Below are positions 21,709-26,386 of a stretch of DNA of 47,527 nucleotides, piece by piece (the first letter of the stretch is position 1; every line of letters begins with the position of its first letter). The notes beneath the pieces are model-generated. The model was not told where the DNA came from. It saw only the letters and a program-made list of their open reading frames with translations, and did no database searches. The position numbers were made by a program, and so were the translations under genes. Source of the DNA: Clostridia bacterium (lineage in GTDB: Bacteria > Bacillota > Clostridia > Oscillospirales > CAG-272); NCBI GenBank assembly GCA_017428635.1, contig JAFRQK010000032.1:1-47527 (forward strand). Reading direction: 5' to 3'.

Positions 21709-22143
21709 TCAGATCTCGCAGCAGTGGCCGCAGCCCTCGCAGTCCGGGAACAGAGAATGGTCGTACTCTATCCCGTGCCTCTCGTAATAGTCCTGAAGCG
21801 CTTTTTTGATCGCCTCTTCAGCGAGGACCGAACAGTGCAGCTTGTGCGCCGGAAGCCCGTCGAGCGCCTCGGCGACCGCTTTGTTCGTGAGCGTCAGCGC
21901 CTCGGATACCGGTTTACCCTTGATCAGTTCGGTCGCCATCGAACTCGACGCGATAGCCGAACCGCATCCGAACGTCTCGAACTTGACGTCCTTGATGATA
22001 TCGTCTTCTATTTTCAGATAGATCTTCATGATGTCTCCGCATTTCGCGTTGCCGACCTCGCCGACGCCGTCCGCGTCTTCGATCACGCCGACATTCCTCG
22101 GATTCCTGAAATGATCCATTACCTTTTCGCTGTAAAGTGCCAT
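21709..22143 (-). CDS. nifU: NifU/IscU-type iron-sulfur cluster scaffold
   Basis: 144 residues. The three scaffold cysteines are Cys35 (NAKCGD), Cys60 (TFGCGSAIASSS) and Cys104 (LHCSVLAEEAIKKA), and the cluster-labile Asp of CGD is present, so it should assemble Fe-S clusters with the cysteine desulfurase encoded 11 bases upstream. The usual LPPVK chaperone motif is replaced by LPAHK, as in the SufU/NifU-like group of Firmicutes. The last ten residues carry four further cysteines (135, 138, 141, 142: DCEGCGHCC), beyond the basic IscU fold. No feredoxin-like or NFU domain is attached. It is last in the iscR-nifS-nifU unit. Confidence 0.95.
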   Translation of the reverse strand: MALYSEKVMDHFRNPRNVGVIEDADGVGEVGNAKCGDIMKIYLKIEDDIIKDVKFETFGCGSAIASSSMATELIKGKPVSEALTLTNKAVAEALDGLPAHKLHCSVLAEEAIKKALQDYYERHGIEYDHSLFPDCEGCGHCCEI

Positions 22144-22154
22144 ATTTATTTACC

Positions 22155-23354
22155 TCACTTTGTGATGAATTCTTTTTTGCCCGCGACGAGGTCGCGCCAT
22201 ACGGGCGACATGTTTCTCAGATACCCGACGACGTCCCTGACCGCGCCGATCGTATATTCGATCTCCTCGTCCGTGTTCTCCTCGGACAGCGAGAGGCGCA
22301 GCGAGCCGTGCGCGATCTCGTGCGGTCTTCCGATCGCGAGAAGGACGTGGCTCGGGTCGAGCGATCCGGACGTGCAGGCGGAACCGGAGGACGCGCAGAC
22401 CCTCTTGTCGTCAAGGAGCAGAAGGAGCGATTCGCCCTCGATGCCCTCGAAGCAGAAGTTCACGTTTCCGGGCAGTCTGTTCTCCGCGTCGCCGTTCAGG
22501 ACGGAGTGCGGGATCTTTGAAAGCTCGGCGATCAGCCGGTCGCGCATAGCGGAGAGCTTTTTAGCGTTCTCATCCATGCGGGAGCACGCCTCTTCGAGCG
22601 CCGCCGCCATACCGGCGATCGCGGGGACGTTCTCGGTCCCGGCTCTCTTTCCGCGCTCCTGCGCGCCGCCCTCGATGATATTCGTGAGGCGGAATCCCTT
22701 TCTGGCGTACAGTACGCCGATCCCCTTGGGACCGTGGAATTTATGAGCTGAGATCGACAGAAGGTCGATATTCTGCTCCGCGACGTTTATCCTGAGATGG
22801 CCCGCCGCCTGGACCGCGTCGGTGTGGAACGGGACGCCCGCCTCGCGGCAGACCGCGCCGATCGCAGCGATCGGCTGGATCGTTCCGATCTCGTTGTTCG
22901 CGAACATCACGGTGACAAGGCACGTGTCCTCGCGGATAGCGTTTTTCACCTGTTCGGGAGTTACTATTCCACGCTCCCCGACCGGAAGCAGCGTGATCTC
23001 GAAACCCTCTTTTTCGAGCTTGTTCAGCGTGTGAAGGACCGCGTGATGCTCGATCGCGGTAGAGATTATATGCTTCTTCCCTTTTTTCTCGCCGATCCTC
23101 GCGGCGGAGACGATCGCCTGGTTGTCCGCTTCGCTCCCACCCGAGGTGAAAGTGATCTCGCGCGGTTCCGCGCCGATACAGCGGGCGATCCGTTCTCTGC
23201 TGTCCGCGAGCGCTTCGGCGGCCTCCTGACCCGCGGAGTGCAGGCTCGAGGGGTTTCCGTAGACTTTGTCGAAATACGGCGTCATCGCGTCGATCGCCGT
23301 TTTGCTCATTTTGGTAGTCGCTGCGTTGTCAAGGTAGATCGTTTTACCGTTCAT
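22155..23354 (-). CDS. nifS: Cysteine desulfurase (NifS/IscS type)
   Basis: 399 residues, group I desulfurase. It takes sulfur from cysteine, giving alanine and a persulfide for the scaffold. The N terminus YLDNAATTKMSK is typical. PLP is held by Lys205 in SAHKFHGPKG, and His103 (IEHHAV) stacks on the cofactor. The active loop has Cys327 in SSGSACTSGSLDPSHVLLAIG, the long flexible loop of IscS/NifS that reaches the scaffold. It is followed by nifU (11-base gap) and preceded by the iscR-like gene (34-base gap). Cytoplasmic. Confidence 0.96.
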   Translation of the reverse strand: MNGKTIYLDNAATTKMSKTAIDAMTPYFDKVYGNPSSLHSAGQEAAEALADSRERIARCIGAEPREITFTSGGSEADNQAIVSAARIGEKKGKKHIISTAIEHHAVLHTLNKLEKEGFEITLLPVGERGIVTPEQVKNAIREDTCLVTVMFANNEIGTIQPIAAIGAVCREAGVPFHTDAVQAAGHLRINVAEQNIDLLSISAHKFHGPKGIGVLYARKGFRLTNIIEGGAQERGKRAGTENVPAIAGMAAALEEACSRMDENAKKLSAMRDRLIAELSKIPHSVLNGDAENRLPGNVNFCFEGIEGESLLLLLDDKRVCASSGSACTSGSLDPSHVLLAIGRPHEIAHGSLRLSLSEENTDEEIEYTIGAVRDVVGYLRNMSPVWRDLVAGKKEFITK

Positions 23355-23388: not shown

Positions 23389-23832
23389 TCAGATAACGTA
23401 ATCGTTACCGCCGTCGAAAGACGCTTTTTTGTCCAAAAGGTCCTGCAGGGTGATGCCGTCGAGATACTCGTTTATCACGTCGTCGAGTCCCTGCCAAACG
23501 GACATGACGGCGCAAGTCGCCCTTCGGTCGCACGCGACGCTGCCGTCGGCGATGCACGAAACGGGACTGAGCGAACCCTCCGCCGCGTGGATTATCTCGC
23601 CGACCGTGCATTCGGACGGGGATTTGGAGAGCCGGTAGCCGCCGTTCTTGCCGCCCTTGGATTCCAGGATCAGCGAAACGCCGGGGATGTTTACGATCTG
23701 CTCGGCGTACTTTTTCGAGATCTCCTGCCTCTCGGCGGCGTCCTTCAAGGGGACGAATCCGTCGGCGTCCTGATACTCGGCGATATCGAGCAGCAGCCGC
23801 AGCGCGTAGCGACCGCGCGTCGAGACCATCAT
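23389..23832 (-). CDS. iscR: Rrf2-family regulator, IscR-like with three cluster cysteines
   Basis: 147 residues from the ATG at 23832; GAGG lies eight bases upstream, whereas the more upstream GTG is part of that ribosome site. A winged HTH with STRGRYALRLLLDIAEY and YAEQIVNIPGVSLILESKGGKNGGYRLSK is typical Rrf2. Cys93, Cys101 and Cys107 sit where IscR has its three Fe-S ligands (92, 98, 104 in E. coli), with a slightly longer first spacing, so it can plausibly hold a cluster. CymR, the cysteine regulator of Bacillus and Staphylococcus, lacks this triplet. It is first in a unit with nifS-nifU and divergent from metY-cysK; matching inverted repeats in both promoters suggest it controls both. 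Confidence 0.93.
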   Translation of the reverse strand: MMVSTRGRYALRLLLDIAEYQDADGFVPLKDAAERQEISKKYAEQIVNIPGVSLILESKGGKNGGYRLSKSPSECTVGEIIHAAEGSLSPVSCIADGSVACDRRATCAVMSVWQGLDDVINEYLDGITLQDLLDKKASFDGGNDYVI

Positions 23833-23881
23833 TATTATCACCTCACGTCTTTTTTATTCGCCTATCTTTTTGCTATGCAAT

Positions 23882-23910
23882 AGTATACCCGTAAAAGCCT
23901 ACCCTGTCAA
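23882..23910 (-). promoter_or_regulatory. Promoter of iscR-nifS-nifU
   Basis: On the minus strand TTGACA (23910-23905), 17 bases, TATACT (23887-23882): an almost perfect housekeeping promoter. Confidence 0.85.
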
Positions 23911-23915
23911 TAGGC
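23897..23915. promoter_or_regulatory. Candidate Rrf2/IscR operator 1
   Basis: Inverted repeat GCCTA-N9-TAGGC covering the -35 box and spacer of the iscR promoter. It has the same layout as the repeat at 23982-24000. Confidence 0.65.
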
Positions 23916-23952
23916 AAATGGAATATTTTTTTAGTTTTTTTTCGAATTTTTG

Positions 23953-23981
23953 TTGACAAACGAAAAATGCGGTGATATAAT
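23953..23981 (+). promoter_or_regulatory. Promoter of the leader ORF-metY-cysK unit
   Basis: TTGACA (23953-23958), 17 bases, TATAAT (23976-23981), with TGA before the -10 box: consensus at both boxes. Confidence 0.9.
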
Positions 23982-24000
23982 ACCTACAAATCCCATAGGT
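23982..24000. promoter_or_regulatory. Candidate Rrf2/IscR operator 2
   Basis: Inverted repeat ACCTA-N9-TAGGT directly after the -10 box, over the likely transcription start. The core CCTA-N9-TAGG is identical to operator 1. Confidence 0.65.
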
Positions 24001-24016
24001 TTACAAGGTGAATGAA

Positions 24017-24082
24017 ATGAAAACCCGATCTGAAACGCTCCGAAAAGAATATACCCTGCGCGAACGAATGTGCCGATGTTGA
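24017..24082 (+). CDS. Short leader ORF ending Met-Cys-Arg-Cys, upstream of metY
   Basis: 21 codons from ATG 24017 to TGA 24080-24082. The peptide starts MKTRSETLRK and ends TLRERMCRC. AAGGTG at 24005-24010 stands six bases before the ATG, and the consensus promoter lies just upstream, so it should be translated. The only two cysteines are the last and third-last residues, and both codons fall in the inner hairpin of a nested RNA structure (24055-24097). The next genes make homocysteine or cysteine. By analogy with known amino-acid leader peptides, ribosomes stalling on Cys codons when cysteine is scarce could change folding and expression of metY. No terminator is visible, so control of metY translation or of RNA stability is more likely than classical attenuation. 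Confidence 0.65.
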   Translation: MKTRSETLRKEYTLRERMCRC

Positions 24083-24097
24083 GGCAGATAACGCAGG
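24055..24097 (+). ncRNA. Nested hairpin over the Cys codons of the metY leader
   Basis: Outer stem CCTGCG (24055-24060) with CGCAGG (24092-24097); inner stem TGCC (24071-24074) with GGCA (24083-24086). The Cys codons at 24071-24073 and 24077-24079 lie in the inner stem and loop. A ribosome stalled there would open both stems. Function is inferred. Confidence 0.45.
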
Positions 24098-24128
24098 TTT
24101 CCTATAAAAATTGAAATGAGGTAAAGCA

Positions 24129-25415
24129 ATGAGCAACTATAAATTCGAAACGCTTCAGCTCCACGTCGGGCAGGAGCAGGCGGACCCCGCGACCGATTCG
24201 CGCGCGGTCCCGATCTACCAGACCACTTCCTACGTTTTCCATGGCAGCGCGCACGCGGCGGCCCGCTTCGGTCTCGCCGACGCCGGCAATATCTACGGCA
24301 GACTTACGAATTCGACCCAGGACGTCCTCGAGAAGAGAGTCGCCGCTCTCGAAGGCGGCGTCGCGGCTCTCGCCCTCGCGTCCGGCGCGGCGGCGATCAC
24401 GTACACGATCGAGGCGCTGGCCGGGAAGGGCGAGCATATCGTAGCCCAGAAGACGATCTACGGCGGCAGCTTCAATCTGCTCGCCCATACCCTTCCCCAA
24501 TACGGGATCGAAACGACGTTCGTCGACGTTCACGACCTCGACGAGGTGAAAGGCGCGATCAGGCCGAACACGAAGGCGATCTTCATCGAAACGCTCGGCA
24601 ACCCGAACAGCGACATACCCGACATCGAGGCGATCGCCGGGATCGCTCACGAAAACGGCATACCGGTCGTGATCGACAACACTTTCGGAACTCCCTATCT
24701 CATCCGCCCGCTCGAACACGGAGCGGACATCGTCGTCCACTCGGCGACGAAATTCCTCGGGGGCCACGGGACGACGCTCGGCGGCATCATCGTCGACGGC
24801 GGCAAGTTCGACTGGAAGGCAGAGGCGGACAGATACGCGCCGATCGCGAAGCCGAACCCCAGTTACCACGGCGTGTCGTTCGCGGACGTCGTCGGCCCCG
24901 CCGCTTTCGTGACGTATATCCGCGCGATCCTTCTGCGCGACACGGGCGCGGCGATCTCCCCGTTCAACGCGTTTCTGCTCCTGCAGGGCGTCGAGACGCT
25001 CTCGCTCCGTCTCGAGCGTCACGCGGAAAACACGAAGAAGGTCGTCGAATACCTCGCCGGGCACCCTCTGGTTGAAAAAGTAAATCACCCTTCTCTTCCC
25101 GATCATCCGCAGCACGCTCTGTACCGGAGATACTTCCCGAACGGGGGGGCGTCGATCTTCAAGTTCGATATCAGGGGCGGCCGGGAAGAAGCGTGGACTT
25201 TCATCGATAACCTGAAGATCTTTTCCCTGCTCGCCAACGTGGCGGACGTCAAATCGCTCGTCATCCACCCCGCTTCAACGACGCACTCCCAGCTCTCCGA
25301 CGAAGAACTCGAGGCCGTCGGCATAAGGCAGAGCACGATCCGCCTCTCGATAGGGACGGAGCATATCGACGATATCATCGCCGACCTTGACGCCGGTTTC
25401 GCCGCGCTGAAATAA
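24129..25415 (+). CDS. metY: O-acetylhomoserine sulfhydrylase
   Basis: 428 residues, the usual length for MetY and longer than MetB/MetC (about 390). The N terminus [21 protein letters not shown] and the sequence [20 protein letters not shown] are typical. PLP Lys208 is in [18 protein letters not shown]. The expected reaction is O-acetylhomoserine plus sulfide to homocysteine plus acetate. The start is ATG with ATGAGGT upstream, 46 bases after the leader ORF. It is followed by cysK, so the unit makes both sulfur amino acids from sulfide, opposite a unit that draws sulfur from cysteine for Fe-S clusters. Confidence 0.95.
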
Positions 25416-25447: not shown

Positions 25448-26386
25448 ATGAAAATGGCTAACGTTTATAAAGGTACTCTCGGACTGATAGGAAACACTCC
25501 GCTCGTAGAGGCGGTCAATCTGGAGCGCGAACTCGGCCTTGAGGCCGCCCTGCTCGTCAAACTCGAATATTTCAATCCTGCCGGAAGCGTCAAGGACAGG
25601 ATCGCGAAAGCGATGATCGAGGACGCAGAGCAGAAGGGTCTTCTGAAAGAGGGCTCCGTAATCATCGAGCCTACGTCCGGCAACACCGGCATCGGTCTCG
25701 CCGCGATCGCGGCGGCTAAGGGATACCGCATAATTCTGACGATGCCCGAAACGATGAGCGTTGAGAGGCGAAACATCCTGAAAGCATACGGCGCCGAGAT
25801 CGTCCTGACCGAGGGAACGAAAGGAATGAAGGGCGCGATCGCCAAGGCGGACGAACTCGCCGCCGAAATCCCGAACAGTTTTATCCCCGGCCAGTTCGTA
25901 AATCCCGCGAACCCGGCGATCCACAAAGCGACGACGGGTCCCGAGATCTGGCGCGACACCGACGGCGCGGTCGATATCTTCGTCGCGGGCGTCGGAACGG
26001 GCGGCACGGTCACCGGTACGGGCGAATATCTGAAAGAGCAGAAACCGTCCGTCAGGGTCGTGGCGGTGGAACCCGCGGGCTCCCCCGTCCTCTCGGAGGG
26101 CAAATCGGGTCCGCACAAGATCCAGGGCATCGGCGCGGGATTCGTTCCCGACGTTCTTAATACCGCGGTATACGACGAGGTCTTCCCCGTCGCGAACGAG
26201 GACGCGTTCGCCACGGCGAAACTCCTCGCGAAAAAGGAAGGCATCTCGGTCGGCATCTCGTCCGGCGCGGCTCTGTTCGCCGCGGTCGAGCTGGCGAAGA
26301 AGCCCGAGAACAAAGGCAAGACGATCGTCGCTCTTCTCCCCGACAGCGGAGACAGGTATTACTCCACGCCGCTGTTTACCGAATAA
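25448..26386 (+). CDS. cysK: Cysteine synthase (O-acetylserine sulfhydrylase)
   Basis: 312 residues. PLP Lys49 is in NPAGSVKDR; the substrate loop [11 protein letters not shown] and the phosphate loop [15 protein letters not shown] are both intact, and SSGAALFAA is the C-terminal family motif. It makes cysteine from O-acetylserine and sulfide. AAAGGAG fits either ATG 25448 or the ATG two codons later (25454). It follows metY after an A-rich 32-base gap. In Bacillus, CysK binds the Rrf2 regulator CymR; whether it touches the IscR-like protein here is unknown. Confidence 0.96.

Follow-up and report, generated by a model that had tools for sequence, protein, structure and literature searches.

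In the 47,527-nucleotide stretch of DNA analysed here (the window), metY, encoding an O-acetylhomoserine sulfhydrylase (24129..25415, plus strand; TIGR01326, 622.8 bits against a cutoff of 495.1), is followed by cysK, encoding cysteine synthase A (25448..26386, plus strand; TIGR01139, 462.5 bits, cutoff 350.95). Divergent from them, on the minus strand, lie genes for an IscR/CymR-like regulator of the Rrf2 family (23389..23841; TIGR00738, 112.1 bits, cutoff 73.3), which scores below both equivalog cutoffs (98.2 of 207.55 for IscR and 85.2 of 195 for CymR), for a cysteine desulfurase (22155..23354; PF00266) that we take from its gene context to be IscS/NifS-like, and for an IscU/NifU-like scaffold (21709..22143; PF01592). 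The promoter of the leader-metY-cysK transcript, TTGACA-17-TATAAT (23953..23981, plus strand), matches the consensus at 12/12 positions and has a TG before its second hexamer; the interval 23700-24300 holds four promoter-like sites, 0.7 being expected. Just after the -10 box, a CCTA-N9-TAGG palindrome (23983..23999) is a candidate operator for an Rrf2-family protein, and a second one (23898..23914) lies over the promoter of the divergent Rrf2-family gene, overlapping a minus-strand TTGACA that begins at 23910. The whole window contains these two palindromes against 0.11 expected, and the longer form ACCTA-N9-TAGGT also recurs in 47 loci of a fetched set of 199, in which some loci overlap one another. 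The CymR/IscR-like regulator and its CCTA-N9-TAGG sites may form a second layer of control over the operon. In L014, L018 and relatives (L173-L176), a 145-aa ORF is found 34 nt downstream of metY, and since its copy in L014 matches Rrf2 (PF02082), leader and regulator may share one transcript there.

The leader reading frame of the window

Between the promoter and metY lies a 21-aa ORF, MKTRSETLRKEYTLRERMCRC-stop (24017..24082, plus strand; ATG at 24017-24019, TGA at 24080-24082), with the ribosome site AAGGTG at 24005..24010 (plus strand), and its stop codon ends 46 nt upstream of the metY ATG at 24129. A reading of this stretch from its letters alone (the sequence-only reading) had pointed out this ATG with its ribosome site, the consensus promoter and a frame ending in Met-Cys-Arg-Cys before metY, all of which we confirmed in the sequence. 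The window thus has a leader ORF with a ribosome site upstream of a pathway operon, as a classical attenuator does. Codons 17 and 18 form the dicodon CGA-ATG (Arg17-Met18; 24065..24070, plus strand), which is the core of the family described below and, from its codon bias, the presumed pause site; a second dicodon, CGA-TGT (Arg20-Cys21), runs with the stop TGA from 24074 to 24082 (plus strand) and is kept in L001-L003. The codons at the putative control point are Met18, Cys19 and Cys21, of which the Met is kept in relatives and the Cys varies.

Two sister genomes of the same genus (L002 and L003; metY 94-95% identical) retain both the leader ORF and its ribosome site, so that the frame is conserved in close relatives, where the sequence-only reading had proposed to look. 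By manual count, about eight synonymous and four amino-acid-changing differences separate the three leaders, with CGA-ATG and CGA-TGT-TGA unchanged in all three sequences. Of the five Arg codons in the leader of the window, four are CGA, and both sisters retain just the two CGAs that precede Met and Cys. The Met-Cys-Arg-Cys ending, in contrast, did not hold up as a conserved element: its first Cys is Arg (CGC) in L002, and Arg stands at the same position in L074, the near-invariant part being CGA-ATG, that is, Arg-Met. A search of the source genome returned one exact copy of the leader, that of the window, and, when three mismatches were allowed, 13 others against one for the control. A two-codon ORF, ATG-AAA-TGA (24012-24020), overlaps the leader start codon, and the sister genomes show a similar overlap. 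The metY reading frame of L002 (G001) contains one internal TAG.

The dicodon Arg(CGA)-Met, with Met at codon 18 and upstream of metY, places the window leader in what we call class A by position, codon pattern and gene, while the class A peptide core NFRFGRM is absent from it, having drifted to EYTLRERM. The 21-codon ORF is real and is a diverged member of a family of leader peptides upstream of metY in Clostridia-type and Treponema genomes.

A family of leaders before metY and NlpA/MetQ-type genes

Class A leaders share the core L[LV]RxNFRFGRM, followed by a Cys-rich tail or a stop codon. Among 110 metY loci fetched from two collections, 33 have a strict class A leader lacking class B features (see below), and looser patterns sorted the same loci into 38 class A, 28 class B or hybrid and 44 with neither, the last an upper bound because the leader of L021 (YYRFGRM) was missed by the patterns. 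Five of the 38 (L023, L026, L027, L028 and L055) have no NFRFGRM-like core. In 77 distinct leaders drawn from all loci collected up to that point, with start codons chosen by our own rule, the core Met is codon 18 in 67. The codon after it is variable (stop, Cys, Tyr, Arg, Pro and others): 22 leaders stop directly after the core Met, 20 of these having no Cys at all, and 48 carry Cys in the tail. Cys makes up 29% of the tail residues, counted up to the eighth after the core Met, against 4/784 residues of the N-terminal parts.

The family was also recovered without reference to metY. The motif TTYMGNTTYGGNCGAATG gave 47 hits in 45 of 394 genomes of the order, with five hits for the reversed control (recount), and 46 of the hits were examined: metY is the gene behind 38 of them (tblastn) and a gene for an NlpA/MetQ-type lipoprotein the one behind seven (L188-L190, L193-L195 and L198; three of the seven checked by Pfam, PF03180), while one stands before neither and is a chance hit. 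Set aside as due to chance were the core match L191 and the match L242, which by eye lies inside another coding frame. The ending of the window type, CGAATGYGNCGATGTTGA, is present in 8/295 genomes of the taxonomic family against none in the control; in seven of the eight the leader precedes metY, three of them being the window and its two sisters. A split metY match, as though from a broken frame, occurs in L116, L125 and L137.

Leader type varies even between close relatives. Two loci of the same genus as the window (L013 and L015) carry NFRKGRM and two others (L006 and L011) a class B leader, which makes three leader forms before the same gene in one genus. Cores of the types NFRNGRM, NFRYGRM, NFRNGLM or NFRNGVM with Cys-rich tails occur in five of seven Treponema or Treponemataceae loci. 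The Treponema-type loci L040, L045, L047, L067 and L088 have leader and metY together, with CGA replaced by CGC in three and by Leu or Val codons in two, and such pairs may reflect transfer of the gene together with its leader. The nature of the tail shows a weak trend with the operon: cysK follows in 17 of 36 loci with Cys-tailed leaders and in 4 of 22 with leaders that stop after Met (p = 0.047), the p-value rising to 0.07, 0.10 and 0.38 when metY proteins were merged at 95, 90 and 85%. Since the sequences are related, these and the other p-values given here overstate the significance.

There is a strong regularity at the codon level. Among loci not chosen by the string CGAATG, the Arg codon before the core Met is CGA in 33 of 36 and CGC in the other three, and in two further loci of that set the codon is one for Leu or Val. 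All 59 leaders with NFRFGRM or NYRFGRM have CGA before Met, many of them having been found through CGAATG, and in the same leaders the inner Arg is written with six different codons, Gly with four and Phe with two. Such free synonymous variation in the core amino acids argues that the leaders are translated. Arg before Cys is likewise CGA in 34/43 cases, against 28/350 other Arg codons (p = 8e-24), and CGA is rare in eight ORFs of the window (7/186 Arg codons).

Predicted folding and output in the window and in class A relatives

The predicted optimum in the window is a nested hairpin (24055..24097, plus strand) that contains the Arg-Met dicodon together with the two Cys codons, with a dG of -15.6 and a z of -2.15 (-2.09 for a slightly different cut), 5 of 200 shuffled sequences being as good. 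The equivalent hairpins of the two sisters, however, have z of -0.70 and -0.50, not clearly better than shuffles, and the 16 predicted pairs show, among the three sequences, one compensatory change and one pair broken in one sequence. The nested structure around the Cys codons proposed by the sequence-only reading therefore stands as a predicted fold, but its conservation is weak and we do not retain it as a conserved element. No terminator-like site was found in 23700-24300, as had been supposed; relatives with class B leaders and class A/B hybrids do carry one, so that the absence of a terminator describes the window and not the family. The terminator with competing antiterminator of a classical attenuator is accordingly missing from the window and present in class B relatives.

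For the metY ribosome site of the window, TGAGGT (24117..24122, plus strand), no masking by the leader is predicted: the modelled release is 0.1 kcal/mol, the maximum along the leader 0.6, and the duplex z +1.12. Its sister L003 gives -0.1, while L002 gives 1.8 (first of 20) but 0.8 in a longer cut. A masked ribosome site freed by a paused ribosome, the mark of a translational attenuator, is thus not predicted in the window.

Many class A relatives are predicted to have such an arrangement. In 26 of 68 loci, leader RNA close to the core complements the ribosome site of metY at p <=0.05 (mean z -1.38; the set includes four near-duplicate pairs), and the masking partners differ between clades, with covariation noted by eye. 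When a ribosome was modelled with the core ATG in its A site, the metY ribosome site was freed by a mean of 2.63 kcal/mol, against 0.28 for shuffles. In 64 loci ranked among 20, this release came first in 23, first or second in 35 and below second in 29, and over 57 loci the release profile was highest at the core ATG codon and the next two. Before NlpA/MetQ-type genes masking was seen for three of seven leaders, two of them near-identical. The modelling suggests that a ribosome paused at CGA-AUG would uncover the ribosome site of the next gene in many relatives.

Class B leaders

Class B leaders, of the type MMCCRM...SRA, contain MMCC-CGA-ATG and, a constant distance downstream, CTCCCGGGCA. 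This segment pairs with TGCCCGGGAG, which forms the first arm of a terminator. This antiterminator pairing involves 9 or 10 of 10 positions in 40/40 class B loci, with compensatory changes at three, the loci having been picked by the first arm or its peptide and not by the second arm. When the 110 metY loci were searched, without use of the motif, for inverted repeats preceding a T-run, 20 loci came up, and in 19 of them the arm began exactly 8 nt after the A of the ATG. The codons before CGA are Cys in 29 and 27 of 35 leaders at the two Cys positions and Met in 26 of 35.

Loci of this class include L006, L009, L037, L062 and L151-L159. Besides metY, which lies downstream in L152 and L154, genes of the NlpA/MetQ type follow in six cases (two checked, PF03180), one for a PLP enzyme of Cys/Met metabolism in one (PF01053) and ABC permease genes in two, of which one was checked (PF00528). 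In another locus a cysK-like remnant precedes an ORF of the glutamate-cysteine-ligase family (PF04107). The class B pattern matches L141, L145 and L148 were rejected as due to chance. A scan with the pattern gave 12 hits in 10/391 genomes of the class against three in the control (manual count). The class B leader would be a transcription attenuator, and apparently an undescribed one. A ribosome covers about 15 nt beyond its P site, so that one waiting on the Cys codons would leave the antiterminator arm free and one at CGA-ATG would partly cover it.

Discussion

The family, its codon bias, its gene context, the fold geometry in relatives and the covariation of the antiterminator are computed results, and together they support the proposal that the leader is tied to the control of sulfur assimilation, the conserved ORF lying before genes of sulfur amino-acid metabolism. 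The reading that we hold with slightly more belief than doubt is that these leaders report the supply of sulfur amino acids, always methionine and often cysteine, through the position at which a ribosome pauses. The pause site would be CGA-AUG, codons 17-18 in the window, where UGC-CGA-UGU extends it. A rare CGA codon immediately ahead of Met or Cys would probably cause the ribosome to respond when the charged tRNA for the following codon runs short, and the conserved nascent chain NFRFGRM may strengthen the pause in most class A relatives. For many of these relatives, the paused ribosome would cover the segment that masks the ribosome site and raise translation of metY or of the NlpA/MetQ-type gene. 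In class B, where this dicodon stands a constant distance before the antiterminator arm, it would govern transcription attenuation. That the leaders are translated, that ribosomes pause in them, and which signal they report in which direction, we infer from these patterns. Given an invariant Met, a common Cys and targets that comprise enzymes for methionine precursors and cysteine and a family of methionine-transporter lipoproteins, a methionine-plus-cysteine report, with methionine as the shared part, fits best. A single Met codon is a thin sensor, which counts against this explanation, as do, in the window, the missing release of the metY ribosome site, the missing terminator and the loss of NFRFG, and, among relatives, the 29 loci ranking below second, the 44 metY loci that scored no leader, the weak tie between Cys tails and cysK and the masking in only three of seven leaders before NlpA/MetQ-type genes.

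The sequence-only reading had proposed a cysteine-responsive leader, in which the ribosome would halt at UGC or UGU for want of charged tRNA-Cys. Part of this survives, as Cys is enriched after the core Met, two Cys codons precede CGA in most class B leaders and cysK belongs to the operon of the window, but Met is the invariant residue, 20 class A leaders have no Cys, L002 and L074 have Arg in place of the first Cys, and metY and the NlpA/MetQ-type targets point to methionine no less than to cysteine; we consider cysteine as the sole signal improbable. The conservation of core residues under free synonymous change, with the core Met at codon 18 in most leaders and a variable codon after it, would also suit a nascent-chain arrest, in which NFRFGRM senses a metabolite in the exit tunnel (e.g., Met, SAM, O-acetylhomoserine or O-acetylserine) and the ribosome halts while Met occupies the P site, irrespective of the next codon. 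Such a peptide model does not require the CGA bias, however, and the clade of the window lacks NFRFG but keeps the codons, as class B also lacks NFRFG, which makes arrest unlikely, if not negligibly so. We find it a little harder still to believe that the leader of the window is a decaying relic, with metY-cysK under the Rrf2-family regulator alone: the lost peptide core, the absence of a terminator and of metY-site masking and the two operator-like palindromes are what a relic would show, but three genomes have preserved the ORF, its ribosome site, CGA-ATG and CGA-TGT-TGA through the drift of the other codons.

A further possibility concerns CGA itself. If 2-thiocytidine at position 32 of tRNA-Arg(ICG) blocked the reading of CGA, a pause there would report the sulfur available for tRNA thiolation. 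The accessible part of PMC5372741 states that tRNA-Arg(ICG) with s2C32 cannot bind CGA. The CGA bias before both Met and Cys would follow, the Arg anticodons among the best 30 of 40 tRNA genes are tct, ccg, cct and acg, with no tcg, C32 is present in tRNA-Arg(ACG), and the genome encodes two TtcA-like PP-loop proteins with CxxC (G000:C41:138588-139097 and G000:C9:67179-67670). Both proteins score under the TtcA equivalog cutoff, however, and although the sign of the effect suits class B, in which thiolated tRNA would hold the ribosome over the antiterminator arm, it is the reverse of that required by class A, in which a pause should mean on. In Vibrio cholerae, according to the part of PMC12588516 that is accessible, s2C32 is reported specifically in tRNA-Ser(GCU), so tRNA-Arg need not carry it. 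In yeast, CGA-CGA codon pairs are described as inhibitory in the available portion of PMC6301793. We have very little confidence in CGA as such a gauge, and scarcely more in the wider version, in which CGA is the sulfur sensor, the speed at CGA-AUG and CGA-UGU reports the sulfur for tRNA modification, Met and Cys are second inputs, and one codon pair drives a translational or a transcriptional output.

If the report of methionine and cysteine supply by pause position is correct, the synthesis of methionine and cysteine, and probably the uptake of methionine, is governed by a widespread leader family in bacteria that record titles place in gut and rumen. T-boxes or SAM riboswitches are usually expected for such control. 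One sensing module, CGA before Met or Cys, would then serve two different output devices, and this even inside a single genus; what a slow arginine codon contributes to attenuation would become directly testable. No T-box, SAM riboswitch or other known RNA was matched in the window at the Rfam gathering score, and two weak matches within 23850-24250 (E 0.43 and 0.76) lie far below it. In ten leader-bearing loci the only known RNA was a tRNA, and 20 of the 44 loci with neither leader gave no more than a tRNA, an L10 leader and a purine riboswitch. Neither the peptide of the window nor an L017-like leader returned a family from NCBIfam or Pfam. A literature search that mostly left out subscription papers and preprints gave only distant items and no paper for the motif strings or for metY leaders, and in the accessible main text of PMC6429828 the words metY, cysK and cysteine do not occur. 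The proposed leader switch is widespread and apparently undescribed.

Several known systems invite comparison. Regulation of cysteine genes by CymR-type Rrf2 proteins acts on transcription initiation, and the window resembles it in its divergent Rrf2-family gene and the palindromes at both promoters; acting at initiation, it would be a layer above the leader. ErmCL and TnaC are ribosome arrest peptides with translational output. As in ErmCL, conserved residues stand by the presumed stall site and, in the model, a paused ribosome would uncover the next ribosome site; as in TnaC, the stop codon directly follows the last core residue in 22 leaders; unlike in both, the targets are biosynthesis and uptake genes, the signal at the codon level is strong and the stall site is presumed. 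Attenuators of the trp type combine a short leader ORF rich in codons for the regulated amino acid with a terminator and a competing antiterminator. The present leaders share the short ORF and, putatively, such codons, and class B the terminator and antiterminator, but the window has no terminator, CGA is conserved directly before the sensor codons, and class A has a conserved peptide core and a fixed length. The nearest described case is that of the Actinobacteria, for which the accessible part of PMC1262725 describes ORFs with Cys codons near the stop before cys genes, with no obvious terminator, in Mycobacterium, Propionibacterium acnes and Bifidobacterium longum. The short ORF, Cys near the stop and the lack of an obvious terminator are shared, whereas, as far as that description goes, our leaders are set apart by a Cys that is often single or absent, an invariant Met, metY and NlpA/MetQ-type targets, and an output geometry that is visible in relatives.
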